A DNA stretch of 64,000 nucleotides from Physcomitrium patens (lineage: Eukaryota > Streptophyta > Bryopsida > Funariales > Funariaceae). Position numbers and translations under genes: made by a program. Below are positions 10,096 to 47,373 of this stretch, piece by piece (position 1 is the first letter of the stretch; each line of letters opens with the position of its first letter). Where the stretch lies: NCBI RefSeq assembly GCF_000002425.4, contig NC_037265.1:788835-852834 (forward strand), given 5' to 3'. Below the pieces are notes generated by a model, which did not search any database, was not told the DNA's origin, and saw nothing but the letters and a program-made list of their open reading frames with translations.

Positions 10096-10680
10096 AACTT
10101 AAGAAGTCCAGGTCTTTTGGAATGAACAAATTCAATTCCTAGACATGGTTTGTGTTATTGGCTCAATTTTGGGATTCTGTTAACGAAGAACAGGTAGACA
10201 TTTGGAAATTGTATCGAAAGTGGTAGTATTAGATTGAGAGGTACCCACACATAATCTCTTATGTTTAGTCCTCATGTAAGGTATGTCTCTAAGGGAGACT
10301 TCGTGTGCATAACACCATACAATGTTTGGTGGGCATGAAGCGGCAACGGTCCTCTTGTTTTTCATTTTGTTTAGGTTTGGGAGGTGGACAGCACTTGCTG
10401 ATGACTAGGATTCCTGCACTGATCCTGTCTTCTTTCTTTTTTCGGTTTCGTGCACTCTTGGGTCTTTTTTGATAACTAAGATTTCATTTGGCTTAGATCG
10501 GCCTTTAATATCTCAAGGTTGGAAGTTGTATGGAACTGAAATCGTCTCTGGATTTCTAGGCATGCAGGAGACCAAGACATTATTGGCTAGATTTTTCGAA
10601 GTATATAGAGGGGTGACAACGCTCACTCTTGTGGAGGATAATTTCGGGATCACCGTAGATCCCTAGGGTTAGCGGAAGAG
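8701..10680 (+). promoter_or_regulatory. Promoter / 5' leader region of the ethylene receptor gene
   Basis: GC content rises sharply at about 8700-9560 and then falls, as at a plant promoter and transcribed leader. The rest contains a T run (9572-9593), an AT microsatellite (9831-9862) and a long T run (about 10060-10094). The T-rich stretch just before the coding exon would suit a 5'-UTR intron, which known ETR1-type genes have, but no splice pair can be chosen with confidence. Open frames at 9311-9559 and 9765-10142 match nothing I recognise. Confidence 0.4.
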
Positions 10681-13600
10681 ATGGATACATGCCATTGTGT
10701 CGAACCGCAATGGCCAGCAGACGACCTTCTTATGCGTTATCAATATGTGTCGGATTTTTTTATAGCCCTGGCATACTTTTCGATTCCGCTTGAGTTGATA
10801 TATTTTGTTAAGAAATCTTCTATATTTCCATACCGATGGGTGCTTGTACAGTTTGGGGCTTTCATCGTCCTCTGTGGGTCTACACATCTTATCAACTTGT
10901 GGACTTTTAGTCCCCATACCCGCACGGTAGCTGTGGTGCTCACTGTAGCGAAGATTTTTACCGCGGTAGTGTCTTGCGCTACTGCCCTTATGCTTATCCA
11001 TATCATTCCAGACCTGCTTAGTGCTAAAACTCGGGAGCTTTTTCTGAAGAACAAGGCAGCAGAGTTAGACAGGGAGATGGGGTTGATACGAACTCGAGAG
11101 GAGACTGGTCGTCATGTTCGCATGCTTACTCATGAGATTCGGAGTACACTTGACCGGCAGACTATTCTGAAGACAACACTGGCTGAGTTGGGAAAGGCAC
11201 TTGACCTCGAGGAATGCACTTTGTGGATGCCAACCCGGCTTGGTCAGGACTTGTTGCTCACGCATTCACTGCGACAACTTGAACAAACGCATATTACAGT
11301 TCCTATACATCACCCAGTAGTAAAGCAAGTCTTTAGTAATCATCGAGCAATTATGATTACACCCAATAGCCCTGTTTGCTTAATCAGATCCCGCCAAGGA
11401 AAGTATTCAATGGGAGATTGCGTAGCTGTGCGGGTCCCACTTCTCCCTCTTAATAACTTCCATACTGATTGGCCTGAGAGCCACTCGAAGCGGGCATATG
11501 CGTTGATGGTCCTTATGCTACCTTGCGATAGTGCTCGTAGGTGGCACGTTCATCAATTACAGCTCGTGGAGACTGTGGCAGACCAGGTTTGGTGATTACT
11601 TTCTTTTTTAAAAAATGATTAGTTTCTTCTTCTTCTCCTTCTTTCTGTAGAGTCGCGTTTTCCTGAACTTTCCTACTGCTGGTCGAGGAATTTGTAGTAG
11701 TCAATGTGGATATGCTTGCGGTTCGTATTGGATGTCAGTTAGTATTTTAGTCTGTCTGGCAATTTCGAGAAGCTTATCTATTCTATACCGTCATAAGATT
11801 CTGACTAGTCTTCTTTATGCAGGTGGCTGTTGCTTTGTCACATGCTGCAATCCTGGAAGAGTCCATGAGAGCCCGCAGCCTTCTTGTGGAACAAAATGTG
11901 GCTTTGGACCTGGCAAGGCGTGAAGCTGAGACAGCCATACGTGCTCGGAATGATTTTCTAGCTGTAATGAACCACGAGATGCGTACACCCATGCATGCGA
12001 TTATTGCCTTGTCTTCCCTTCTCCAGGAGACACGATTGACGCCCGAACAGCGTTCAATGGTGGATACTATTCTCAAAAGCAGCAACTTATTAGCGACTTT
12101 AATCAACGATGTACTTGATCTCTCTCGGCTCGAAGACGGAAGCTTGGAGTTAGAGACCCGGGTCTTTAACCTACCAATCGTTTTCAAAGAGGTTGCGCAT
12201 GTTATCTTCAATCACTTCTGTTCAAAATCTATTGGCGCCGGCTTTCTTCATTATCATGTCATAGGGTGGAAACTACTAAATACTTATTGACTTCGTTGAA
12301 AGTTCGATTTATAGATTTTGAACAATATTTGGTAGGTATGGATAGCTGACTATCCTTAATGTGTTAATCAATTTGATGATTTTTTTGCAGGTTATGAAAT
12401 TAGTTGCACCGATAACTTCAGTGAAAAAACTCAAATCTGAATTGACTTTGGATGGAGACCTACCAGAGTTTGTGGTGGGCGATGAAAAACGGCTCATGCA
12501 AACTGTTCTCAATGTTGTTGGGAATGCTGTGAAGTTCACGAAAGAGGGCAGCGTGACCATTCATGTTATTCTTGATAGGGATAGAACAGATTATCAAAGG
12601 TCTGAGCCTCATTCTCTCAGAGAACCTCTATCGCAAGTAGAGTCCCGCTCGCAAAGGGATCATCATCTTTCTTTGGGAGAGCAACATTGCTACATTAGAG
12701 TTGAGGTACAGAAATTTTGGAGTTAACTAACTGCACTTACTGTGACGTGCAAAAATCATAGCATTGCTGATGTAAGTGTCTATGATAGGCTACATCACAA
12801 GTTCTTTTGAAAGTTTCCTTGTCAAGTTAGATGCATGTTGATCCTTTGTTTTTGTCCTTAGTTTTGATGTCCAAAGTTTGTGCATGGCAGGTGGTCGACA
12901 CTGGTGTGGGCCTGAATCCTTTGGATATTCCCAATCTTTTCAACAAATTTCTCCAGGCTGACTCTTCTCCTACTAGAAATTACGGAGGAACAGGCCTGGG
13001 CTTGGCAATCTGTAGGAGGTAACTCAATCGGTCACTATTACTTTTTGTTGCAGATGTCATGTTCTTCGTTGATGTTGTGACCATTTGTCCTGTGATTATC
13101 GATCCGACGACATGCAATCTGAAGAAGTGGATAAACTATTTCATTGTGCAGGTTCGTGTCCCTGATGGGCGGCGACATATGGGTTGAGAGTGAAGGCATT
13201 GGAAAGGGTACCACCGTCAATTTTAGTGTCAGACTAAGCCTACCTGAGAAACCAAATGAACAAGATAGGCAAATTACTCCCTCTCCTGCATCAGTACATC
13301 TGCGAACCGATTTTAGCGGTGTGAAGGTCCTTGTCACAGATGATAATGGGTATGTCTCTTGAGTTCTGATTGACTGATATCATTGTAGTTTTTATTAATG
13401 TGCTCGCATGTATCATCATTTGCATCGGCTCTTCTAAGGTGTCTCGATAGCCAATGTCTTTTGTTTGATGCGCTTGAGCTTTCTGTTACTTCATGTTAGG
13501 GTCCTGTATTGATTCGTTTATTGATTGTGCGGCTGCTTTTACATCTGTACTTGTGCCTAGACATTAACTTACTTCAATGTGATGTACAGGGTGAATCGGA

Positions 13601-27137: not shown

Positions 27138-27556
27138 TGTCATGGATATATATATTTACCTCAATAGTTACTTATATGATTAAGTAGAAGTAGGTAAAAT
27201 AGAATAATTTCATAAAGTCTTCTAGAGAAGCTTCTTAGAAGCTTTATAGACATGGTTTTGACTTTAGATATGTTCGTAGGTTAGAAACTTGGCCAAAAAG
27301 CTAACCATGTATTAGTAGCTTGTGGAACAAGTTACCTCCGTGTAATAGCTTGTGGAACAAGCCAACTATGTGGCGCATATATAGATAACTTGCCTTGCAA
27401 GATAAGACATGTAGCTAGTAAAGTCAACACATATTGGAGGTCCTATAGGACATCGCTACATAGCTCTTAGTTAGATAGTATATATGGAGGCAAGAGTGAA
27501 GCCTTCTTCACTCTTGTCAACGTCTTTCTAGTCTTAGTCTTGTTTCAAGACTTTCT

Positions 27557-27590
<34 letters not shown>

Positions 27591-27702
27591 AATAGCCAAT
27601 TCTAATTAATATTACATCACCTTTTGAGTGACTTTCTAGTTTTCTTTAGTTATAGAAGAATATATTGAAGATTTTCTTTTTTCGTAATTTATGTCCTTGA
27701 TA
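27138..27702 (+). repeat. E1 5' LTR
   Basis: It starts TGTCATGG and ends CTTGATA, where the 3' LTR keeps CTTTGACA. A TATA box lies at 27479-27485. The predicted start CACTCTTGTCAA follows 31 nt on (A at 27510) inside a palindrome with arms CAAGAGTGAAG/CTTCACTCTTG. Two copies of TAGCTTGTGGAACAAG lie upstream of the TATA box. The length is 565 bp including the T-run expansion. Confidence 0.93.
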
Positions 27703-27704
27703 GT

Positions 27705-27716
27705 TTGACAAGAGTG
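27705..27716 (+). promoter_or_regulatory. E1 primer-binding site, self-primer type (candidate)
   Basis: TTGACAAGAGTG begins two bases after the 5' LTR. It is the exact 12-base complement of CACTCTTGTCAA at the predicted RNA start in the same LTR (27509-27520). A minus-strand primer must anneal next to the LTR end, and no TGG-starting tRNA complement is present there. Confidence 0.6.
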
Positions 27717-32961: not shown

Positions 32962-33509
32962 TGTCATGGACATATATATTTACCTCAATAGTTACTTATA
33001 TGATTAAGTAGAAGTAGGTAAAATAGAATAATTTTATAAAGTCTTCTAGAAAAGCTTCTTAGAAGCTTCATAGATGTGGTTTTGACTTTAGATGTGTTTG
33101 TAGGTTAGAAACTTGGCCAAGAAGCTAACCATATATTAGTAGCTTGTGGAACAAGTTACTTCCGTGTAGTAGCTTGTGGAACAAGCTAATTACGTGGCGC
33201 ATATATAGATAACTTGCTTTACAAGTTAAGACATGTGGCTAGCAAAGTCAACACATGTTGGAGGTCCTATAGGACATCGCCATGTAGCTCTTAGTTAGAT
33301 AGTATATATGGAGGCAAGAGTGAAGCCTTCTTCACTCTTGTCAATACCTTTCAAGTCTTAGTCTTGTTTCAAGACTTTCAAGTCTTCCTGTTTTTTGCAA
33401 TAGCCATTCTAATTAATATAATATCACCTTTTGAGTGACTTTGTAATTCTCTTTAGTGATAGAAGAGTATATTGAAGATTCTCTTTCTTCAAGATTCATG
33501 TCTTTGACA
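32962..33509 (+). repeat. E1 3' LTR
   Basis: It starts TGTCATGG and ends TTTGACA, 548 bp. A purine-rich tract (AGAAGAGAGGCTAA, 32948-32961) directly precedes it and is the likely plus-strand primer. It differs from the 5' LTR by scattered substitutions and lacks the T-run expansion. Confidence 0.93.
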
Positions 33510-33534: not shown

Positions 33535-34142
33535 GAGTCTTAATCAAGATTAGACAAAGCTTTGATATTATAGGTGTACTCTTGTTAATCTGTCAAGGAC
33601 AAGAACTCGATGAAAAAATAATTCAGACAAGTAATGCTTCACTCAAAGATATGTAACAAAATATATATAAACAAGTATATATATTGAAGTAGAAACTAGA
33701 ATGGCTATTGCCAAAAGACAAGAAAACTAGAGACCCTTGAAACTAGACTAGAAGTAAGAAAGGAGTTGACAAGAGTGAAGAAGCCTTCACTCTTGTCTCT
33801 ATATATACTATCTAACTAGGGGCTACGTGGCGACGTTCTATAGGACCTCCAATATGTGTTGACTTTGTAGGATACATGCCTTGACTTACAAGGCAAGTTT
33901 TTCTATGTGTGGGCCTTTATAGTTAGCTTGATCTTCAAGCTAACAACATGTGTGGCACATGGCCAACTTGTTGACTACGTTTCTAATCCAAAAAATCAAT
34001 TAAAGACACCTATGAAGTCAAAGCAGCGTCTAAGAAGCTTCAAAGAAGCTTCCATATTAAATATTATAGAATTAATTTACTTTTACTTACTTCTACCTAT
34101 TTCTATATGTAATTATTAGCGTACATGATTATGGCCGTGATA
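33535..34142 (-). mobile_element. Remnant of the E2/E3 family: one LTR plus PBS and leader stub
   Basis: The interval 33591-34142 (552 bp) is a minus-strand LTR of the E2/E3 family (TGTCAAGG to CCGTGATA on the plus strand). The PBS complement (33578-33588, one mismatch) and a short leader piece lie on its left, so this was a 5' LTR. The body that should continue to the left is missing; about 25 bases further on is the end of E1 and its duplication. A solo LTR from recombination would not keep a PBS, so a deletion or rearrangement is implied. Confidence 0.85.
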
Positions 34143-35796
34143 TATTGTTACTAAGAATATTAGTAGTATGTAATGAATTTATTTTTATTATTAAAAAAAA
34201 ATATCTTTACATAATTAATACCTTTTTCTTGTCAAAAATCCATAGCCACCAATTAAGCTTTATAAATAGTGATTATTTTATAAAAAAATATCATATATAT
34301 CCTTAAAATATATTAAAATATGAAGATTTTTCATATATTTTTAATTATAGCAAAGATATCCTTCTCTTTTGTGATACTTGCAAATCTATCCATGAGCTTG
34401 ATAAGATATAATTTTATTCCTATTTTAGGTAAATATAGACTCTAATTCAAGTGCCATGCACATTTTAATGCGATTTTTTTTCTACAAGTTTGGCCTTCTA
34501 CAAACTATATGATGGTGTTGTTATCGCTATTGTCATATCTCCTTTGTTATATATGCCTAGCTTTATTAATGGCATCAAAATTATACTACCTTGATAGTTA
34601 GTGAACTTGTCGATAATACGTAAATTTTGGAACAATACGTGAATTTAGAAAGATCAATAATAAATAATATGTCATTCACCATAAGTACTAAAACTCTCAT
34701 CCTAATTCCACCTAAGTATGGATTTGAAAGGAAATTTTACATTCAAATATGAAAAGATAAAAGTATTCTTTTATTTGATCAAGATGAAATCATAACCAAT
34801 AATCAACTCAAAAACCTCTTTTGCATGTCGAATGAGGATCATGCAGTTTTCTTTTCTATCCTTCAAGTGTATAGTTTAGCAAGAGCTTGATTGTCTTTTT
34901 TATTGGTTATAGAAGTTAGTTGGAGCATTTACACTATAGAATATGATCATCCCTTCTCTTATAGGAGAGTTTGTACAGATGTATTTATTGTCGTGGTTGT
35001 CTTTAGACCTTTGATTCTTATAGTTGAGCTCTAGTTAAATTACTTGTAATTCAACTAGACATCTAGAAGATATATGGATTAAGTAGAAAGAAAGATTATG
35101 GAGTTGAGATTGTAAATTTGTATCTAAGACTATTCTTTATATTATTTGTTAAATATAATTGTCCAACATTTGTTTTAATTATTAAATTGATTCAAAATTT
35201 GACATACTTTTATTTCTCAAATGATATTTATTTTAAATAATGTAATCCATTTCTAAAGACAAACATCTGCAAAACATTATCACTATATCTAATTAATATA
35301 AAAGTTTTATATTTTGAAAAAATAAACTATAACATTAATTACTCATCATGACTCTCAATCCATATACTCCTTAGTATATTTATAACTAATAAATTTTGAA
35401 CTTAAGACCAAAAAATTTAAAATCATTGTTTGAATATTTCTATCAGATTTGTCTACTTCATAAATATATATTGTCATATATCTCATTTATTAATTTGAAA
35501 GCCTAGTGATATTATAAAATGCACTATTGCAAATGATCGTTATCAGTTAATTTCTTTGTCTATATCTTAATATATCAACAAATTTAAATATAGGTCTTTT
35601 AGTTGAAATTAGTGACACCAATGACTTATTGTTTTTTTGGATATGTGTCCAAACTTAACAATCTACAGTAGAAGTTGCCGTGATTGAGTCAAGTCTAGCA
35701 TTCGTGTTGTAATTTAGGCAACTAGTCAATGAATGCTTCTTCTTTATAATGTTATATTGAATATTCTTTGATTCATTCCACCACAAGTAGGCAAAT
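34143..35796. other. AT-rich spacer between retroelements
   Basis: No gene was recognised. A half-arm of the 59-bp repeat family is at about 34257-34275. The last five bases, CAAAT (35792-35796), are the left target duplication of E2. Confidence 0.6.
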
Positions 35797-36155
35797 TGTC
35801 AAGGACAAGAACTCGATGAAAAAATAGTTCAGACAAGTAAGCCTTCACTCAAAAAAAAGTAACAAAATATGAATAATAAGTATGTATATTGAAAAGAGAA
35901 ACTAGAATGGCTATTGCCAAAAGACAAGAAAACTAGAGACCCTTGAAACTAGACTAGAAGCAAGAAAGGAGTTGACAAGTGTGAAGAAGCCTTCACTCTT
36001 GTCTCTATATATACTATCTAACTAGGGGCTACATGGCGACGTTCTAAGAAGATTCTATATTAAATATTATAGAGTTAACTTATTTTTATCTACTTTAACT
36101 TACTTCTACCTATTTCTATATGTAATTATTAGCTTACATGATTATAGCCGTGACA
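35797..36155 (-). repeat. E2 3' LTR with internal deletion
   Basis: This copy is 359 bp against 561 bp for its 5' partner. About 200 bp are missing at 36049-36050, corresponding to roughly 47055-47255 of the other LTR. The TATA box and start-site palindrome are retained; the lost part is the U3 segment upstream. Confidence 0.92.
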
Positions 36156-36175: not shown

Positions 36176-36253
36176 GAGTTCCACGAAGAGCGGTCATCAT
36201 ATGTTGAGAAAATCTATGATGCGACGAATTGTATTCGCCACATACTCTGATCT

Positions 36254-36619
36254 CTATTCTCTTCGAAGATGATTGATAGGGCCTCTCAACCATCGGTAGT
36301 GTCCCATACCAGGGCGAGAAGACCACCCAGTTATTTGATCATTATTGAGGCCTTCGTAACTTCCTTCTAATAGAATATTTGGAACACCATCAGGAGTTGT
36401 TCCTACCTCTAGCAAAATCACCAAACATCGGGAGTCCCTTCCCAAATTGTGATACCAAACGCGTTGTATCTCACCATCTATTCGAGTAAGAACATATCGT
36501 TCTTGAAGATCTTCATCTCGATTGCGTCGTCTTGAAGGTTGTGACAATCGTAATGTCTCATCCGACAGGTCAGCAAACGAAGGTTCTTGAGTTGAATCTG
36601 CTGGTTGTTGGCTCTCCAT
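36254..36619 (-). CDS. E2 third ORF, 121 residues, function unknown
   Basis: This is an uninterrupted frame downstream of the chromodomain and upstream of the polypurine tract. It opens MESQQPADSTQEPSFADL, is rich in Arg/Glu, and has an SRRRNRDEDLQERY stretch and a Trp-Tyr containing C-terminal half (RVWYHNLGRDSRC, GHYRWLRGP). There is no signal peptide, membrane segment or zinc motif, so it does not look like an envelope protein. The same ORF is present as a decayed copy in E1 (32578-32940) and as a truncated start in E3 (45602-45640). Its persistence between pol and LTR suggests an accessory protein of the family, but I do not recognise it. Confidence 0.75.
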   Translation of the reverse strand: MESQQPADSTQEPSFADLSDETLRLSQPSRRRNRDEDLQERYVLTRIDGEIQRVWYHNLGRDSRCLVILLEVGTTPDGVPNILLEGSYEGLNNDQITGWSSRPGMGHYRWLRGPINHLRRE

Positions 36620-36729
36620 CTAATTAGCGTCACAAATGCAAAGAAGTTACAAACAAGGATAGGAAATTGAATGTTATCTTGCCTCAATCTTGTCTCTTTT
36701 ATAAGAGAGATTTTCATCTTGGTTTTGAT

Positions 36730-39700
36730 GGATGTCGTTGATGAAAAACTTTGACTTTAGCTAATGCATTTGCTAGATTCCTGGATGGCTCTCATGTGCG
36801 TTCACTAATATCATATCCGTGCCAATGAACAAGATATTCCAGCTTATTTCGACGCCGCCTTGAGTCTAATATCTCTTCCACCTCAAATTCTTTATTATTA
36901 TCTACTTCTATAGGAGGCGGTGGCATTTGTCTTCTTCCTTGTATGTCTTATATGGTTCAAGAAGAGATACGTGGAATACAGGATGGATCTTCATTGACTC
37001 CGGTAGATGTAACCGATATGCAACTGGGTTGATCTGTTCAGAAACAGAAAAGGGGCCAAGCCTACGGTAGTCCAACTTGTCACAAGGTCGAGTAGACTTG
37101 ATATTGCGACGAAGTAGCCATACTTTATCACCCACGTTGAGATGTGGTTGCTCCTTACGATATAGATCTATGTTTATCTTTTGTCGTTCTTGAGCTTCCT
37201 TCAATTGTGTCTTCATTATTGCATGTAACTCTGACAACCGATTTGCTATATCTTCTGCTGCAGGATTATCAACTTTTGAAAAATCAAAAGTATCAAGTCG
37301 TGGATGATAGCCATAATTGGCAAAGAAAGGTATTTCTTGCGTGGAAGAATGTACCATATTATTATAAGCAAACTCTGCCAATGGCAGAAGGCTTATCCAA
37401 TCATCTTGTTGGTAGTTGATAGTACACCTTAAATACTACTCCAAGACTTGGTTAACGTGCTCTGTTTGTCCATCAGTTTGAGGATAGAAAGCCGAAGATA
37501 GCTTTATGTCCACTTTTAAAATCTTGAAAAGGGTCCTCCAAAATCTTGACACAAATTGAGTTCCCCTATCCAATATGATATCTTTAGGTAATCCATGATA
37601 GCGATAGATATTATCAATGAAAAGCTTAGCTGTTTCTTCACCTGTGATAGATTTTGTACATGGCACAAAATGTGCCATCTTGGTGAAACGATCTACTATC
37701 ACAAATATAGAATCATAAGATCTTGAGCTTGGAAGATCTGTGATGAAATCCATAGAAACAGAAGACCATGGTTGTTCTAGTATAGGTAATGGCTGAAGAA
37801 GTCCGTAAGGTCGATGACGAGGAATTTTTGATCTTGAACAAATATCACATGATTGTACAAAGTCTTTGACTGACTTCCACATTTGTAGCCACCAAAAATC
37901 TCTTGATATGAGTTCCAAAGTCTTATTATATCCAAAGTGCCCTGCTGCTGGAAAGTCATGACGTGCTTGAAGAACACGTAAACGTGCTTCTCCTTCTGAA
38001 ACATATAGGCGTCCTTCAAAATATAATAGATTATTCTTGAACTCAAACTTAGAAGGATCATGAGACTTGGAAGAATTATTCTCGATATCATAAATAAGAG
38101 GGTCTGAGGACATACTGGATTGGATTTGCTTGAGAAAAGTTGAATCAACAGTCAATGTTGATTTCATTGCTCGGAGATGAAATAGCTCCGGTTTCAAGAG
38201 GACCGTTCTTTGTTGCTCAAAAGCTGCATCTCCTTCTTTTGGTGCAAAATAAGAACGTCTAGATAGGGGATCAGACAAACCTTGTTGTTTTCCTGGCCGA
38301 TAAGTGATAATGAACTCGAATCTTGACAAAGACATACTCCAACGAGCTTGAAGACGATTCAACACGCGTGCTGACATGAAATACTCGAGATTCTTGTGAT
38401 TTGTATACACAGTGACTGGACTAGAAGCGCCTTCTAGATAATGACACCATTCTTGAAAAGAATCCACGATCGCAAGAAGTTCTTTATCGTGGATCTCATA
38501 ATTGATCTTGGCTGCTGAGAATTTTATTGAATGAAAAGCTATCGGATGAAGTTTGTCATCCATTCCCATTTGTGATAAAACTGCACCCAAGGCAAAATTT
38601 GATGCATCGGTTTCCATAAAAAATGCCTTGGAAAAGTCAACACGATATAAGACTAGTGCAGACACAAACGATGTCTGCAAGGCTTCAAATGCTGCTTCCG
38701 CTTTTTGATTCCATTAAAATTTATCTATACTAATCAAGTATGTAAGAGGAGCTGCAACTCGTGAGAAAGCTTTGATGAAGATCCGATAGTAATTGGCAAA
38801 TCCCAAGAAACATTGGACATCTCTTACTGTCCTTGGAATCTTCCAATCCATGATTGTTTGGACTTTCTTAGAATCCATCATGAGACCATCATTTGAAATG
38901 ATGTATCTTAAAAAGTCAACTTGAGTAGTGTGAAATACACACTTTTCCATCTTGGCATACAATCCTGCATCTCTAAGTTTTAGTAATACTTGACGAACAT
39001 GTATTTCATGTTCTTCGACATTCTTGGAATAGATCAAGATATCGTCTAGATAGCATACGACAAAATTGTCTAAGAATTCACGAAATACATCATTCATGAG
39101 ATGTTGAAAAGCAGTTGGTGTATTCATGAGTCCAAAAGGCATGACATTATATTCGAAATGTCCATACCTGGTTCGAAACGTAGTCTTCCATTCATCTCCT
39201 TCTTTGATCCGTACTAGATTATATGCTCCTCTTAGATCTATTTTTGTATAGATCTTAGCTTGATTCAACTGGTCAAGGAGTCCTGATATCAAAGGTAATG
39301 GATACCTGTTCTTGATTGTGATCTTGTTGAGTCCTCGATAATCAACACACATTCGTAAAGATCCATCTTTTTTCTTTACAAATAGAATTGGAGCTCCTGC
39401 TGGAAATTTTGAATGGCGTATGAAATTCTTTGCTAAATTCTTGTCAATATATGTCTTGAGTTCAGCCAACTAATCTTGCGATAAACTGTAAATTGGTCCA
39501 AATGGTGGCTGAGTTCCTTCCTTGAGGTCGATTGAACAATCATATGGGCGATGCTCAGGAAGAATATCTGCATTCTTTTTCTCAAAAACGTCTTGATACT
39601 CTTGATATTGACTTAGAATGCCACTTGAAGTTTTTACGTTTTCAAAAATAGGTGCAGCATAAATAGCAAAAGTTGATCCTTTTTTTGCTGCGTGTATAAA

Positions 39701-40251
39701 TGCTTTTGCACCTATCAGTACGGGTTTTACTATACTAAACTTATAATTTTTTACTTGGTTGGTAGAACTATTAATAACGCTTTGGGAAAAGTCAAGTTTA
39801 CGAGAATTGCAATCAATTTGAGTGTTATATTTTTCTAGCCACGATAAACCTAAAATAACAGGATTGGACGGGGATTTAATTATGTTAAAAGCTATGTAGC
39901 TATCATGACCGTCTATTGTTACTTTTATAGGATGAGTTTCATGAGTGACATCTCCAGAAGACAAGAGACGACTATCTATGACTTCTACATGTACTGGTTT
40001 AGGTTTCTGTACAAAGGATATTTTACGACTTTTAATAAATTGTTCATCTAAAAAACATGCTGAGGCTCTCGAATCTAATAAAGCAAAGGCTTTGTAATTC
40101 TTAGGTCCTAAATATAAGTCTATTATAAAACAAGGAGATGGTTCTGAGGAGAGGATAGGACCTTCATTAGAAATTGTACAAGGTCCAGCTGCATGGTCCC
40201 TATTGTAGCTGGACGAATCTGTTTCTCGACATGTTGTCTTCTTGGACCATC
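36730..40251 (-). pseudogene. E2 pol (protease, RT, RNase H, integrase, chromodomain) with several lesions
   Basis: On the minus strand, pol would start at ATG in TAGGGACCATG near 40.2 kb. Protease has DSRA (40067-40075) in place of DSGA. RT keeps YLDD. RNase H and a full integrase follow in one frame, with the first zinc-binding His pair and C-x2-C (CDICS), and Asp-Asp-Glu positions in VSMDFIT, LDRGTQF and TEHVNQVLE. A chromodomain ends the protein. Lesions: a one-base deletion just after the start, TAG at 39470-39472, TAA at 38714-38716 (shared with E3), TAG at 37436-37438 (shared with E1), and a deletion of about eight bases near 36950 before the chromodomain. Confidence 0.93.
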
Positions 40252-40795
40252 AGTCACGGCCATAATCATGTAAGCTAATAATTACATATAGAAATAGGTA
40301 GAAGTAAGTAAAAGTAGATAAAAGTAAGTTAATTGTATAATATTTAATATAAAAGCTTCCTAGAAACTTCCTAGACGCTGCTTTGACTTCATAGGTGTCT
40401 TTAATTAACTTTTTGGATTAGAAACGTGGTCAACAAGTTGGCCATGTGCCACACATGTTGTTAGCTTGAAGATCAAGCTAACTATGTGGCCCACACGTAG
40501 AAAAACTTGCCTTGTAAGTCAAGGCATGTGTCCTACAAAGTCAACACATATTGGAGGTCCTTTAGAACGTCGCCACGTAGCCCCTAGTTAGATAGTATAT
40601 ATAGAGACAAGAGTGAAGGCTTCTTCACTCTTGTCAACTCCTTTCTTGCTTCTAGTCCAGGTTCAAGAGTCTTTAGTTTCTTGTCTTGTGGCAATAGCCA
40701 TTCTAGTTTCCTTTTAATATACCTACTTGTTTATATTTTATATCGAGATAGCCTTTTGGTGTATATTTTTCCTCATCGAATCTTTGTCCTTGACA
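40252..40795 (+). repeat. E3 5' LTR
   Basis: A 544-bp LTR of the same family as 46808-47368 (reversed) and 33591-34142 (reversed), ending TTGTCCTTGACA. It has hairpin-forming sequence TTAGCTTGA/TCAAGCTAA in U3 and a TATA box at 40596-40603. R is inferred to begin at about 40627. Confidence 0.93.
40596..40637 (+). promoter_or_regulatory. E3 LTR core promoter and start-site palindrome
   Basis: TATATATA is at 40596-40603. A perfect 13-bp inverted repeat (GACAAGAGTGAAG at 40606-40618 and its complement at 40623-40635, 4-base loop) covers the expected start. The predicted 5' end of the RNA, ACTCTTGTCAA (40627-40637), begins 31 nt after the first base of the TATA box. The arrangement is conserved in E1, E2 and the remnant at 33.6-34.1 kb. 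Confidence 0.7.
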
Positions 40796-40797
40796 GA

Positions 40798-40808
40798 TTG
40801 ACAAGAGT
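40798..40808 (+). promoter_or_regulatory. E3 primer-binding site, self-primer type (candidate)
   Basis: TTGACAAGAGT begins two bases after the LTR end and is the exact complement of ACTCTTGTCAA (40627-40637), the predicted first 11 bases of E3 RNA. E2 has the same site at 46795-46805 (minus). A TATCAGAGC motif resembling an initiator-Met tRNA site occurs at about 40820, but it is 24 bases inside the LTR edge and is not kept in E1. Confidence 0.6.
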
Positions 40809-41007
40809 ACACTTACAATATCAGAGCTTTGTTTTTTCTTGAGTAAGAGTGGATTATCCCTTTCTCTTGACAAGACATAAGCGTATTAGAAGTTTCTGGA
40901 TTACCCACTTCTAAACTGATATTGTTCTTAGTATCTTCTTTGTTATCAAGTCTTTCTTTTCTTTTGTCTTGAGCAATATCAAACAAATTTTTCTTCTTAG
41001 TGTCATT

Positions 41008-42012
41008 ATGGCAGAGCTTGTTGAAATGAAGAGTGCAATGGCACAAATGCAAGAGCAAATGAGGGAGTTAATGCTTGCGATGCATCAACTCAATTCACCA
41101 ACACAGGAAAGAACAAGAATAGCAGAAAGTGGAGATATAGAGATGATCGGAGCTGCTTCAACATCTACAACAAATCACGTTCCTTCTCCAATTGTACAAC
41201 ACCCTATAAGCACTAGAGAACCAAGAATTACCTTACCTGAGAAATTTGATGGTACGAGATCAAAGTTTCGAGGGTTCATCAATCAAGTACAATTGGCAAT
41301 TGAACTTCAACCGCAAAGCTATCCAACTCCAGGATCACAAGTCAGGTTTATTGGCACTCTACTTTCTGGTTCTGCATTATCGTGGCTTTCGTCTTTTCTT
41401 GAACAACGAAATCCAATATTGGACAATTTGGAAGCTTTTTTGGCAGAGTTTCGATCTATGTATGGTGAAGACGATGCAACTCGTGTTGCAACAAATAAGA
41501 TCCGAATTCTGCGACAAGGAAATCGCTCAGTAACAGTATATACTTCACAATTTCGACAACTTGCAATTGACATCAAGTGGGATGATGCTGCACTCATCAG
41601 TCAATTTCTTTATGGATTGCAATACGAAGTAAAGAAATTGATGCTCAACTTACCTGATCCTCAAACTTTGAGTCAAGCAATCGATTTTGCGGTAAAATGT
41701 GATAATCGACTTTTTGAATTTCGATCTGAGAATCATTCACGGGAACCTCAACGTTATTACTCAATGGCAACATCAACATCTTTGCCAAACATACATTCGA
41801 AAGTAGAAGACATGCAAATTGACGCGGTACGTTTTAAACCTCTAACTGAGCAAGAAAAGATTCGTCATCGTCAAGAAGGATTATGTTTATATTGCGGAGA
41901 ACCTAAGCACACTGCTCAACATTGTCCAAAGAAACGATGCAACTATAAAATGAGGGGTACAACGGTCAAAGAAGACAACATGTCGGAAAACGGATTCGTT
42001 GACCTACAATAG
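41008..42012 (+). CDS. E3 gag, intact
   Basis: This uninterrupted frame of 334 residues starts MAELVEMKSAMAQMQEQM, with a Met/Gln-rich coiled N-terminus. The retrotransposon gag core (LPEKFDGTRSKFRGFINQ, FIGTLLSGSALSWLSSFLE) is followed by a CCHC zinc knuckle, CLYCGEPKHTAQHC, near residue 295. The product would form the virus-like particle and bind element RNA. It ends in TAG only five bases before the pol start position. Upstream frame extension to 40969 lacks an ATG, so I start at 41008. Confidence 0.92.
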   Translation: MAELVEMKSAMAQMQEQMRELMLAMHQLNSPTQERTRIAESGDIEMIGAASTSTTNHVPSPIVQHPISTREPRITLPEKFDGTRSKFRGFINQVQLAIELQPQSYPTPGSQVRFIGTLLSGSALSWLSSFLEQRNPILDNLEAFLAEFRSMYGEDDATRVATNKIRILRQGNRSVTVYTSQFRQLAIDIKWDDAALISQFLYGLQYEVKKLMLNLPDPQTLSQAIDFAVKCDNRLFEFRSENHSREPQRYYSMATSTSLPNIHSKVEDMQIDAVRFKPLTEQEKIRHRQEGLCLYCGEPKHTAQHCPKKRCNYKMRGTTVKEDNMSENGFVDLQ

Positions 42013-42017
42013 GGACC

Positions 42018-45000
42018 GTGCAGCTGGAACCTTGTACAATTCCTAATGAAGGTCCTATCCTCTCCTCAGAACCCTCTCCTTGTTTTATAATAGACTTATA
42101 TTTAGGACCTAAGAATTACAAAGCCTTTGCTTTATTAGATTCGAGAGCCTCAGCATGTTTTTTAGATGAACAATTTGTTAAAAGTCGTAAAATACCCTTT
42201 GTACAGAAACCTAAATCAATACATGTAGAAGTCATAGATGGTCGTCCCTTGTCTTCTGGAGATGTCACTCATGAAACTCATCCTATAAAAGTAACAATAG
42301 ACGGTCATGATAGCTACATAGCTTTTAACATAATTAAATCCCCGTCCAATCCAGTTATTTTAGATTTATCCTGGCTAGAAAAATATAACCCTCGAATAGA
42401 TTGGAATTAGCATAAACTTGACTTTTCCAAAAGCGTTATTAATAGTTCTACGAACCAAGTAAAAAATTATAAGTCTAGTACAGTAAAACCCGTACTGATA
42501 GGTGCAAAAGCATTTATACACGCAGCAAAAGAAAGATCAACTTTTGCTATTTATGCTGCACCTATTTCTGAAAACGTAAAGACTTCAAGTGGCATTCGAA
42601 ACAATATCAAGAGTATCAAGACGTTTTTGAGAAAAAGAATGCAGATATTCGTCTTGAGCATCGTCCATATGATGTTTTTTTAATCGACCTCAAGGAAGGA
42701 ACTCAGCCACCATTTGGACCAATTTACAGTTTATCGCAAGATGAGATGGCTGAACTCAAGACATATATTGACGAGAATTTAGCGAAGAATTTCATACGTC
42801 ATTCAAAATCTCCAGCAGGAGCTCCAATTCTATTCGTAAAGAAAAAAGATGAATCTTTACAAATGTGTGTTGATTATCGAGGACTCAATAAGATCACAAT
42901 CAAGAACAAGTATCCATTACTTTTGATATCAGGACTCCTTGACTAGTTGAATCAAGCTAAGATCTATACAAAAATAGATCTAAGAGGAGCATATAATCTA
43001 GTACGGATCAAAGAAGGAGATGAATGGAAGACTGCATTTCCAACCAGGTATGGACATTTCGAATATAATGTCATGCCCTTTGGACTCACGAATGCACCAG
43101 CTGCTTTTCAACATCTCATGAATGATGTATTTCGTGAATTCTTAGACAATTTTGTCGTCTGCTATCTAAACGATATCCTGATCTATTCTAAGAACGTCGA
43201 AGAACATGAAATACATGTTCGTCAAGTATTACAAAAACTTAGAGATGCAGGATTGTACGCCAAGATGGAAAAGTGTGTATTTCACACTACTCAAGTTGAC
43301 TTTTTAGGATACATCATTTCAAATGATGGTCTCATGATGGATTCTAAGAAAGTCCAAACAATCATGGATTGGAAGATTCCAAGGACAGTAAGAGATGTCC
43401 AATGTTTCTTGGGATTTGCCAATTACTATCGGATCTTCATCAAAGATTTCTCACGAGTTACAGCTCCACTTACACGCTTGACTAGTAAAGATAAATTTTA
43501 ATGGAATCAAGAAGCGGAAGCAGCATTTGAAGCCTTGCAGACATCGTTTGTCTCTGCACCAGTCTTATATAGTGTTGACTTTTCCAAGGCATTTTTTATG
43601 GAAACAGATGCATCAGATTTTGCCTTGGGTGCAGTTTTATCACAAATGGGAACAGATGACAAACTCCATCCGATAGCTTTTCATTCAAGAAAATTCTCAG
43701 CAGCCGAGATCAATTATGAGATCCACGATAAAGAACTTCTTGCGATCGTGGATTCCTTTCAAGAATGGCATCATTATCTAGAAGGCGCTTCTAGTCCAGT
43801 CACTGTGTATACAAATCACAAGAACCTCGAGTATTTCATGTCAGCACGCGTGTTGAATCGTCGTCAAGCTCGTTGGAGTATGTCTTTGTCAAGATTCGAG
43901 TTCATTATCACTTATCGGCCAGGAAAACAATAAGGTTTATCCGATGCCCTATCTAGAAGTTCTTATTTTGCACCAAAAGAAGGAGATGCAGCTTTTGAGC
44001 AACAAAGAACGGTCCTCTTGAAACCGGATCAATTTCATCTCCGAGCAATGAAATCAACATTGACTGTTGATTCAACTTTTCTCAAGCAAATCCAATCCAG
44101 TATGTCCTCAGACCCTCTTGTTTATGATATCGAGAATAATTCTTCCAAGTCTCATGATCCTTCTAAGTTTGAGTTCAAGAATAATCTATTATATTTTGAA
44201 GGACGCCTATATGTTCCAGAAGGAGAAGCACGTTTACGTGTTCTTCAAGCACGTCATGACTTTCCAGTAGCAGGGCACTTTGGATATAATAAGACTTTGG
44301 AACTCATATCAAGAGATTTTTGGTGGCTACAAATGTGGAAGTCAGTCAAAGACTTTGTACAATCATGTGATATTTGTTCAAGATCAAAAATTCCTCGTCA
44401 TCGACCTTACGGACTTCTTCAGCCATTACCTATACCAGAACAACCATGGTCTTTTGTTTCTATGGATTTCATCACAGATCTTCCAAGCTCAAGATCTTAT
44501 GATTCTATATTTGTGATAGTAGATCGTTTCACCAAGATGGCACATTTTGTGCCATGTACAAAATCTATCACAGGTGAAGAAACAGCTAAGCTTTTCATTG
44601 ATAATATCTATCGCTATCATGGATTACCTAAAGATATCATATCGGATAGGGGAACTCAATTTGTGTCAAGATTTTGGAGGACCCTTTTCAAGATTTTAAA
44701 AGTGGACATAAAGCTATCTTCGGCTTTCCATCCTCAAACTGATGGACAAACAGAGCGCGTAAACCAAGTCTTAGAGCAATATTTAAGGTGTACTATCAAC
44801 TACCAACAAGATGATTGGACAACCCTTCTGCCATTGGCAGAGTTTGCTTATAATAATACGGTACATTCTTCCACGCAACAAACACCTTTCTTTGCCAATT
44901 ATGGCTATCATCCACGACTTGATACTTTTGATTTTTCAAAAGTTGATAATCCTGCAGCAGAAGATATGGCAAATCGGTTGTCAGAGTTACATGCAATAAT

Positions 45001-45508
45001 GAAGACACAATTGAAGGAAGCTCAAGAATAACAAAAGATAAACGCAGATCTATATCGTAAGGTGCAACCACAAATCAACGTGGGTGATAAGGTATGGCTA
45101 CTTCGTCGCAATATCAAGACTACTCGACCTTGTGACAAGTTGGACTATCGTAGGCTTGGCCCCTTTTCTGTTTCTGAACAGATCAACCCAGTTGCATATC
45201 GGTTACATCTATCGGAGTCAATGAAGATCCATCCTGTATTCCACGTATCTCTTCTTGAACCATATAAGACAGTGGATATACAAGGAAGAAGACAAATGCC
45301 ACCGCCTCCTATAGAAGTAGATAATAATGAAGAATTTGAGGTGGAAGAGATATTAGACTCAAGGCGGCGCCGAAATAAGCTGGAATATCTTGTTCATTGG
45401 CGCGGATATGATATTAGTGAACGCACATGGGAGCCATCCAAGAATTTAGGAAATGCATCAGCTAAAGTCAAAGTTTTTCATCAACGACATCCATCAAAAC
45501 CAAGATGA
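42018..45508 (+). pseudogene. E3 pol (protease to chromodomain) with stops, one frameshift and a YLND RT site
   Basis: The start codon is GTG here where E2 has ATG. Protease DSRA is at 42138-42149. Lesions: TAG near 42408, a one-base deletion near 42595, TAG at 42944-42946, TAA at 43499-43501 (shared with E2), TAA at 43931-43933 and TAA at 45029-45031. The RT catalytic motif reads YLNDILIYSK, losing the first Asp. In contrast, the integrase (44018-45028) is uninterrupted and keeps its zinc-binding end and D, D, E residues. The chromodomain (about 45330-45505; [29 protein letters not shown]) is intact and would direct insertion to marked chromatin. Confidence 0.93.
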
Positions 45509-45601
45509 AAATCTCTCTTATAAAAGAGACAAGATTGAGGCAAGATAACATTCAATTTCCTATCCTTGTTTGTAACTTCTTTACATTTCTGACGCTAATT
45601 A

Positions 45602-45640
45602 GATGGAGAGCCAACAACCAGCGGATTCAACTCAAGAACC
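45602..45640 (+). pseudogene. E3 third ORF, truncated start
   Basis: The first 13 codons match the start of the 121-residue third ORF of E2 (MESQQPADSTQEPS). The frame then runs into the reversed gag of E2 at 45641. This is the right-hand breakpoint of E3. Confidence 0.85.
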
Positions 45641-46596
45641 TTCGTACCCCTCATTTTATAGTTGTGTCGTTTCTTTGGACAATGTTGAGCAGTGTGCTTA
45701 GGTTCTCCGCAATATAAACATAATCCTTCTTGACGACGACAAATCTTTTCTTCCTCAGTTAGGGGTTTAAAATGTATCGCATCAATTTGCATGTCTTCTA
45801 CTTCCGAATGTACGTTTGGCAAAGATGTTGATGTTGCCATTGAGTAATAATGTTGAGGTTCCCGTGAATGATTCTCAGATCGAAATTCAAAAAGTCGATT
45901 ATCACATTTTACCGCAAAATCGATTGCTTGACTCAAAGTTTGAGGATCAGGTAAGTTGAGCATCAATTTCTTTACTTCGTATTGCAATCCATAAAGAAAT
46001 TGACTGATGAGTGCAGCATCATCCCACTTGATGTCAATTGCAAGTTGTCGAAATTGTGAAGTATATACTGTTACTGAGCGATTTCCTCGTCGCAGAATTT
46101 GGATCTTATTTGTTGCAACACGAGTTGCATCGTGTTCACCATACATAGATCGAAACTCTGCCAAAAAAGCTTCCAAATTGTCCAATATTGGATTTCGTTG
46201 TTCAAGAAAAGACGAAAACCACGATAATGCAGAACCAGAAAGTAGAGTGCCAATAAACCTGACTTGTGATCCTGGAGTTGGATAGTTTTATGTTTGAAGT
46301 TGAATTGCCAATTGTACTTGATTGATGAACCCTCGAAACTTTGATCTCGTACCATCAAATTTCTCAGGTAAGGCAATTTTTGGTTCTCTAGTGCTTATAG
46401 GGTGTTGTACAATTGGAGAAGGAACGTGATTTGTTGTAGATGTTGAAGCAGCTCCGATCATCTCTATATCCCCACTTTCTGCTATTCTTGTTCTTTCATA
46501 TGTTGGTGAATTGAGTTGATGCATCGCAAGCATTAACTCCCTCATTTGCTCTTGCATTTGTGCCATTGCACTCTTCATTTCAACAAGCTCTGCCAT
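45641..46596 (-). pseudogene. E2 gag, one stop and truncated at its 3' end by E3
   Basis: It starts at 46596 (MAELVEMKSAM) and is closely similar to E3 gag. One in-frame TAA at 46288-46290 replaces a Gln codon. The zinc knuckle CLYCGEPKHTAQHC is intact near 45.70 kb. The reading frame leaves E2 at the breakpoint, so the last few codons and the gag stop are on the other side of E3 near 40.2 kb. Confidence 0.92.
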
Positions 46597-46794: not shown

Positions 46795-46805
46795 ACTCTT
46801 GTCAA
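46795..46805 (-). promoter_or_regulatory. E2 primer-binding site, self-primer type (candidate)
   Basis: On the minus strand, TTGACAAGAGT begins two bases inside the 5' LTR, exactly as in E3 and E1. Its complement occurs at the predicted RNA start inside the LTR near 46.98-47.01 kb. Confidence 0.6.
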
Positions 46806-46807
46806 TC

Positions 46808-47368
46808 TGTCAAGGACAAGAACTCGATGAAAAAACAGTTCAGACAAGTAAGCCTTCACTCAAAGAAAAGTAACAAAATATGAATAATAAGTATGTATAT
46901 TGAAAAGAGAAACTAGAATGGCTATTGCCAAAAGACAAGAAAACTAGAGACCCTTGAAACTAGACTAGAAGCAAGAAAGGAGTTGACAAGAGTGAAGAAG
47001 CCTTCACTCTTGTCTCTATATATACTATCTAACTAGGGGCTACGTGGCGACGTTCTATAGAACCTCCAATATGTGTTGACTTTGTAGGACACATGCCTTG
47101 ACTTACAAGGCAAGTTTTTCTACGTGTGGGCCACATAGTTAGCTTGATCTTCAAGCTAACAACATGTGTGGCACATGGCCAACTTGTTGACCACGTTTCT
47201 AATCCAAAAAGTCAATTAAAGACACCTATGAAGTCAAAGCAGCGTCTAGGAAGGTTTTAGGAAGCTTCTATATTAAATATTATAGAATTAACTTACTTTT
47301 ATCTACTTTTACTTACTTCTACCTATTTCTATATGTAATTATTAGCTTACATGATTATGGCCGTGATA
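46808..47368 (-). repeat. E2 5' LTR
   Basis: This 561-bp LTR directly abuts the right target duplication CAAAT (47369-47373). Its outermost bases read TATCACGG on the minus strand, one change from TGTCACGG. It has the same TATA box and start-site palindrome as E3. Confidence 0.93.
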
Positions 47369-47373
47369 CAAAT

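Follow-up and report, generated by a model that had tools for sequence, protein, structure and literature searches.

The long terminal repeat (LTR) retrotransposons in a 64,000-nucleotide stretch of the Physcomitrium patens genome (hereafter the window) are chromodomain Ty3/gypsy elements (chromoviruses), which in all probability use their own RNA to prime reverse transcription, in the manner of Tf1. The initial annotation had proposed such Tf1-like self-priming, and the proposal is supported here by a primer-binding site (PBS) that matches the element's own 11-mer in two families and in a single copy of a third LTR type. As expected of self-priming elements, the PBS carries a complement of about 11 nt to the segment of the 5′ LTR in which the RNA should start.

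The elements encode the Pfam domains Retrotrans_gag, Ty3_capsid, RVP_2, RVT_1, RT_RNaseH, rve and SH3_Tf2-1, and a chromodomain (Chromo) is recognised in the element E3 at 6.3e-16, none being reported in the scanned piece of E2. The Ty3-type gag, the order protease–RT–RNase H–integrase and the chromodomain are those of chromoviruses, and among solved structures the reverse transcriptase (RT) finds its best matches in Ty3 Gag-Pol, 7q5b (1.1e-58) and 4ol8 (1.7e-59). No relatives were confirmed among viral contigs. The plant setting that had been read from the window agrees with its ethylene-receptor-like gene, and the elements very probably belong to the Tcn1 clade, and the moss-like setting and self-priming fit what is described for that clade in PMC6317226. 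The features of the window are as follows.

40252–40795, plus strand: E3 5′ LTR, a 96.5% match to the E2 5′ LTR over 481 bases, ending in ..CCTTGACA
40596–40603, plus strand: E3 TATA box TATATATA, with the first base of the primer 31 nt downstream of its start
40606–40635, plus strand: E3 inverted repeat, arms of 13 bp at 40606–40618 and 40623–40635, loop of 4 nt
40627–40637, plus strand: E3 self-primer ACTCTTGTCAA, the predicted first 11 nt of the RNA
40798–40808, plus strand: E3 PBS TTGACAAGAGT, 2 nt (GA) inward of the LTR end
40915–45508, plus strand: E3 proteins (gag, RT piece, integrase, SH3_Tf2-1, chromodomain)
40915–42012, plus strand: E3 gag, stop-to-stop frame
46808–47368, minus strand: E2 5′ LTR, with the target duplication ATTTG at 47369–47373
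46983–46993, minus strand: E2 self-primer
46795–46805, minus strand: E2 PBS, the match reaching 12 bases with 46794; gap GA
35797–36155, minus strand: E2 3′ LTR, with the target duplication ATTTG at 35792–35796
36908–40249, minus strand: E2 pol pieces (protease, RT, RNase H, integrase, SH3_Tf2-1)
27138–27702, plus strand: E1 5′ LTR
27510–27520, plus strand: E1 self-primer, 27509–27520 in its 12-base form
27705–27715, plus strand: E1 PBS, the match reaching 12 bases with 27716; gap GT
33766–33776, minus strand: self-primer in the LTR of a remnant
33578–33588, minus strand: remnant PBS TTAACAAGAGT, with one mismatch; gap GA
10642–12290: ethylene-receptor-like gene with ETR1_N, GAF and HisKA domains

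E3 lies nested within E2 in the opposite orientation, at approximately 40249–45645, with the E2 pieces resuming at 45638 and 40248, and BLAST of the window found no 3′ LTR for E3. The E2 3′ LTR is 202 bases shorter than the E2 5′ LTR and its copy of the primer is mutated to ACACTTGTCAA; on the minus strand at about 36250–36650, between the chromodomain region and this 3′ LTR, an open stretch of about 130 residues may represent an extra frame of the window family. E1 is flanked by GCCAT and ACCAT, which resemble a target duplication with one mismatch, and its 5′ LTR contains a run of 30 T at 27559–27588 that is far shorter at the corresponding position of the 3′ LTR.

The primer–PBS complementarity claimed for the window proved accurate in each copy. 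In E3, the 11 bases lying 2 nt inside the 5′ LTR edge are the exact complement of the primer that begins 31 nt past the start of the TATA box; E1 and E2 have the same exact 11-base complement, extended to 12 bases in each, at the coordinates listed above, and the remnant retains the same pair of sites with one mismatch. The accompanying claims were likewise confirmed: two bases separate the PBS from the LTR end in all four copies (GA in E3, E2 and the remnant, GT in E1), and the edges of the E2 LTRs are fixed independently by the ATTTG/ATTTG target duplication. In none of the four copies does a TGG start 5 nt or less from the LTR edge.

In 2000 dinucleotide shuffles of each LTR, a complement starting 0–5 nt inside the LTR edge and as long as the one seen (12, 12 and 11 exact bases for E1, E2 and E3, and 8 exact bases for the remnant) was found in 0.05% of shuffles for E1 and E2, 0.3% for E3 and 11.7% for the remnant; the E1 LTR was taken one base short at its end, which leaves its match unaffected. 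The primer 11-mer occurs 14 times in the window with at most one mismatch, against 2.28 expected and with none of 100 shuffles reaching this number, most of these copies being related by descent. Predicted structures of the E3, E2 and E1 RNAs place the start in a duplex with the PBS in both the minimum-energy and the centroid folds, while their overall fold stability is not special relative to shuffles (z of −0.9 to −1.0). We take the motif YTCANTYY to be an initiator with its A at +1. The primer–PBS duplex has a predicted energy of −14.4 and −16.2 kcal/mol for the own pairs of the two families, as opposed to −6.5 and −3.2 kcal/mol for cross-family pairs, and TTCANTCT around the presumed start fits the YTCANTYY motif, entered as INRNTPSADB (PMC2844064).

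Across the genome (470 Mb in 101 contigs), a first search with gag gave 29429 candidates, of which 112 were scored, and both exact 11-mers are present in all 30 loci cut out by way of this search, E3 among them. We rejected this conservation inside the window family as weak proof: the 112 scored copies, E3 itself aside, are 95–97% identical, so that so young a sample says little. Over the whole genome, a count of ACTCTTGTCAA followed by (N)TG gives 2069, and one of the reversed pattern gives 11. Among 28 older E1-like loci, chosen for an intact primer, two (L007 and L073) have the exact PBS at the LTR end and six (L001, L077, L081, L085, L088 and L089) have a PBS with 1–2 mismatches beside the LTR end after a 2-nt gap; the remaining 20, which are not separable, comprise 3′ LTRs, LTRs that are solo or decayed, and matches in the opposite orientation.

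A second chromovirus family of the same genome shows this arrangement with a different sequence. It was found by a PF17919 search (27524 candidates, 150 scored, 8 loci cut out and compared), and its RT shares 70.5–76.9% protein identity with that of E2 at all eight loci. Its primer, AGTCTCGACAA, lies 32 nt past the start of TATATA in its LTRs and its PBS, TTGTCGAGACT, 2 bases inward of the LTR end, with both sites present in 30 of the 32 loci examined; L056 and L100 were dropped for want of a recognisable junction. Pairing is Watson–Crick at 11/11 positions in 20 of the 30 loci and, taken position by position, in 23–30 of the 30 at positions 1–11, and falls to 0/30 at each of positions 12, 13 and 14, to 0/30 at −2 and to 11/30 at −1. 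Positions −3 and 16 often pair, not contiguously with the duplex. This limit after position 11 would be consistent with an RNase H cut there. The primers of the window family and the second family differ at positions 2, 6 and 8, and all three PBS partners are compensated (AGTCTCGACAA/TTGTCGAGACT versus ACTCTTGTCAA/TTGACAAGAGT). Both sites were also found in six of seven further loci, three for each primer type, with the last primer base changed in L124 and with L127 dropped as lacking a recognisable junction. The single copy of a third LTR type carries yet another pair, AATCTTGACAA/TTGTCAAGATT, with its TATA at −32 and a gap of 2 nt.

We quantified covariation in 18 sequences chosen by hand from the loci then available, seven of the window type and 11 of the second family. 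In the primer–PBS duplex, 98.5% of cells pair, as compared with 33–43% when the columns are slid by 1–3; cells changed on both sides number 21 against 7.8 in shuffles that ignore the relatedness of the sequences, with 0/500 reaching 21, and the covariation score is 0.277 against 0.105, again with 0/500 reaching it. Counted as pairs changed on both sides, the duplex shows no excess (3 against 2.5, 247/500). Most of the covariation thus reflects a single split, that between the two families.

The degenerate pair CTTCANTCTNGNCAA..TTGNCNAGANT is found 2012 times genome-wide and its reversed control 0 times; by a hand count, 84 of the 100 matches listed have AGTCTCGACAA. We fetched all 16 unusual and five usual rows among those listed. 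Of 20 rows fetched, 19 lie at an LTR end; L142, which looks like a chance match of the pattern, was dropped. Within the second family, four of the five copies with the usual primer pair fully and one has a mismatch, and the 13 copies with a changed primer comprise one that is fully compensated by Watson–Crick pairing, four that still pair through G·U and eight that keep a mismatch; two rows belong to the window family, one a full match and one a chance match. Copy-level covariation within the second family, which we had considered as support, is therefore counted against, and we read the uncompensated changes as decay after insertion. The suggestion that the PBS covaries with the RNA-start segment accordingly holds between families, in which three 11-mers each have their own PBS, and for the most part does not hold among copies of the second family. 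As changes within a family are mostly uncompensated, the case rests on the differences between the two families and on the one copy of the third type. The second-family primer occurs with a window-family PBS at the same spacing three times genome-wide. These mixed junctions (C18:3161091–3161253, C20:4293459–4293610 and C20:6882195–6882356) are possible recombinants.

Could the complementarity be a shared ancestral accident, or a promoter or integrase signal with no role in priming? In its favour, the window family has TTGACA both at the U5/LTR end and in the PBS, descent passes identical letters to related copies, and changes inside a family go mostly uncompensated; however, the three between-family differences are compensated, pairing stops sharply past position 11, the second-family primer is joined to a window-family PBS in just the three cases above, and the second-family LTR ends in GTGACA as against its PBS TTGTCGAGACT, so that we regard this explanation as very improbable. 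It is also highly unlikely that the PBS pairs with the interior of a tRNA (the half-molecule priming of some Ty1/copia elements), its match to the LTR being incidental: although plants do have elements primed in this way (PMC6317226), no TGG opens the PBS here, and a tRNA would not explain why the PBS tracks its own LTR across three different sequences, with the LTR partner 31–32 nt past the TATA box in the located junctions.

In the self-priming mechanism that we favour, transcription by Pol II would begin with the A of ACTCTTGTCAA, 31 nt past the start of the TATA box. The first 11 nt of the transcript are complementary to the PBS, which lies 2 nt inward of the LTR end, and are predicted to fold back and pair with it. 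By analogy with Tf1, the RNase H of the element would then cut after nucleotide 11, and the freed 11-mer would prime synthesis of the minus strand across the last two bases and U5. The two bases between the PBS and the LTR end would presumably be trimmed by integrase.

A further feature of these LTRs is an inverted repeat at the presumed border of U3 and R, GACAAGAGTGAAG-GCTT-CTTCACTCTTGTC, which extends around the presumed start from −21 to +9. The 5′ arm, lying in U3, reproduces nine bases of the PBS. The copies in the window are the following.

40606–40635, 27491–27516, 33315–33340, 33768–33797 and 46985–47014: inverted repeat in five LTR copies, with perfect arms of 11–13 bp and a loop of 4 nt

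A scan of the 64-kb window for perfect arms of at least 11 bases and loops of 3–8, leaving out one- and two-letter sequences, returned these five LTR copies and two AT-rich inverted repeats, and no others. Folded as RNA, the hairpin of E3 has a predicted energy of −21.3 kcal/mol and five examples range from −16.8 to −21.3 kcal/mol, compared with the −14.4 and −16.2 kcal/mol of the primer–PBS duplex. In the same 18 sequences, with 11 of the 13 pairs counted (a gap column intervening), 97.0% of hairpin cells pair, against 36–48% when slid, and 13 cells are changed on both sides, against 4.7 in shuffles; pairs changed on both sides show no excess (2 against 1.5, 241/500). The arms change in step between the families, A-U versus G-C in one case and G-C versus C-G in another.

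Because U3 is present in the RNA at its 3′ end alone, the hairpin might conceal the primer copy located there. As a weaker proposal than self-priming itself, the inverted repeat would be complete only in the 3′ copy and would mask the primer sequence there, leaving the true 5′ end alone free to anneal to the PBS. The RNA start, the PBS and the PBS-like U3 arm would then form a three-way complementary system in which the segments co-evolve, a model that we put forward tentatively and consider somewhat doubtful. Palindromes are often sites for proteins, and the inverted repeat may instead act as DNA, through a binding site or initiator symmetry, or be a by-product of copying and no RNA hairpin, for which we see a little short of an even chance. 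The repeat spans the presumed start site (−21 to +9) and, in the one copy of the third LTR type, inspected by eye, it is imperfect, both of which would suit a DNA element; against this, the arms differ in step between the families, a change that a fixed binding site would not need. Searches of titles and abstract openings found no such U3/R inverted repeat, the subscription literature being mostly uncovered and absence therefore unproven. In addition, the LTRs close with a small inverted repeat, TGTCCTTGACA or TGTCCGTGACA (40785–40797, and in the second family), immediately ahead of the PBS; it resembles the U5-IR stem to which the title of a Tf1 paper refers.

Self-priming of this kind has precedents in fungi and predictions in plants. 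In Tf1, the first 11 bases of the RNA are complementary to the PBS and RNase H cuts between bases 11 and 12 (PMC7175516), and in Tj1 of S. japonicus the PBS is complementary to the 5′ end of its own mRNA (PMC4600332). The likeness to Tf1 and Tf2 of Schizosaccharomyces pombe is upheld by a complement of the same length, 11 nt, and by a shared integrase domain of the Pfam family SH3_Tf2-1; in contrast to those elements, the present ones have a plant host, and their self-priming is predicted from sequence. Neumann et al. (2019) reported that most Tcn1-clade elements, from mosses and clubmosses, have no tRNA-type PBS, predicted them to be self-priming and tied the clade to the fungal Tf1/sushi elements (PMC6317226), whereas the parts of that paper drawn on here give no exact length, covariation or hairpin. 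Novikova et al. (2010) assigned SM-Tcn1 of Selaginella to the Tcn1 clade, with no evidence of either kind of priming according to the sections of their paper used here (PMC2864245). The most abundant transposable element of Physcomitrium patens is RLG1, a Gypsy element with an integrase chromodomain that is transcribed in protonema (Vendrell-Mir et al. 2020; PMC7466625); its abundance fits one of the present families, making it a candidate for identity, and the words 'priming' and 'Tcn1' are absent from the main text of that paper. Given the known 11-nt mechanism of Tf1 and the prediction of Neumann et al., our main claim is not new, self-priming here being already known in kind and predicted for moss and clubmoss Tcn1 chromoviruses. 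What we add, by comparing sequences, is a sharp 11-nt limit, the compensation between families and the U3/R inverted repeat that repeats part of the PBS and differs in step between the two families.

Self-priming frees an element from the host tRNA and from defences based on tRNA fragments. The plant clade that it distinguishes was linked by Neumann et al. to the fungal Tf1/sushi elements. How such an element tells apart the 5′ and 3′ copies of its repeat could be tested cheaply by way of the U3 arm, and since a single genome offers some two thousand site pairs, in no fewer than two matched types, the co-evolution of primer and PBS becomes directly testable in a plant.
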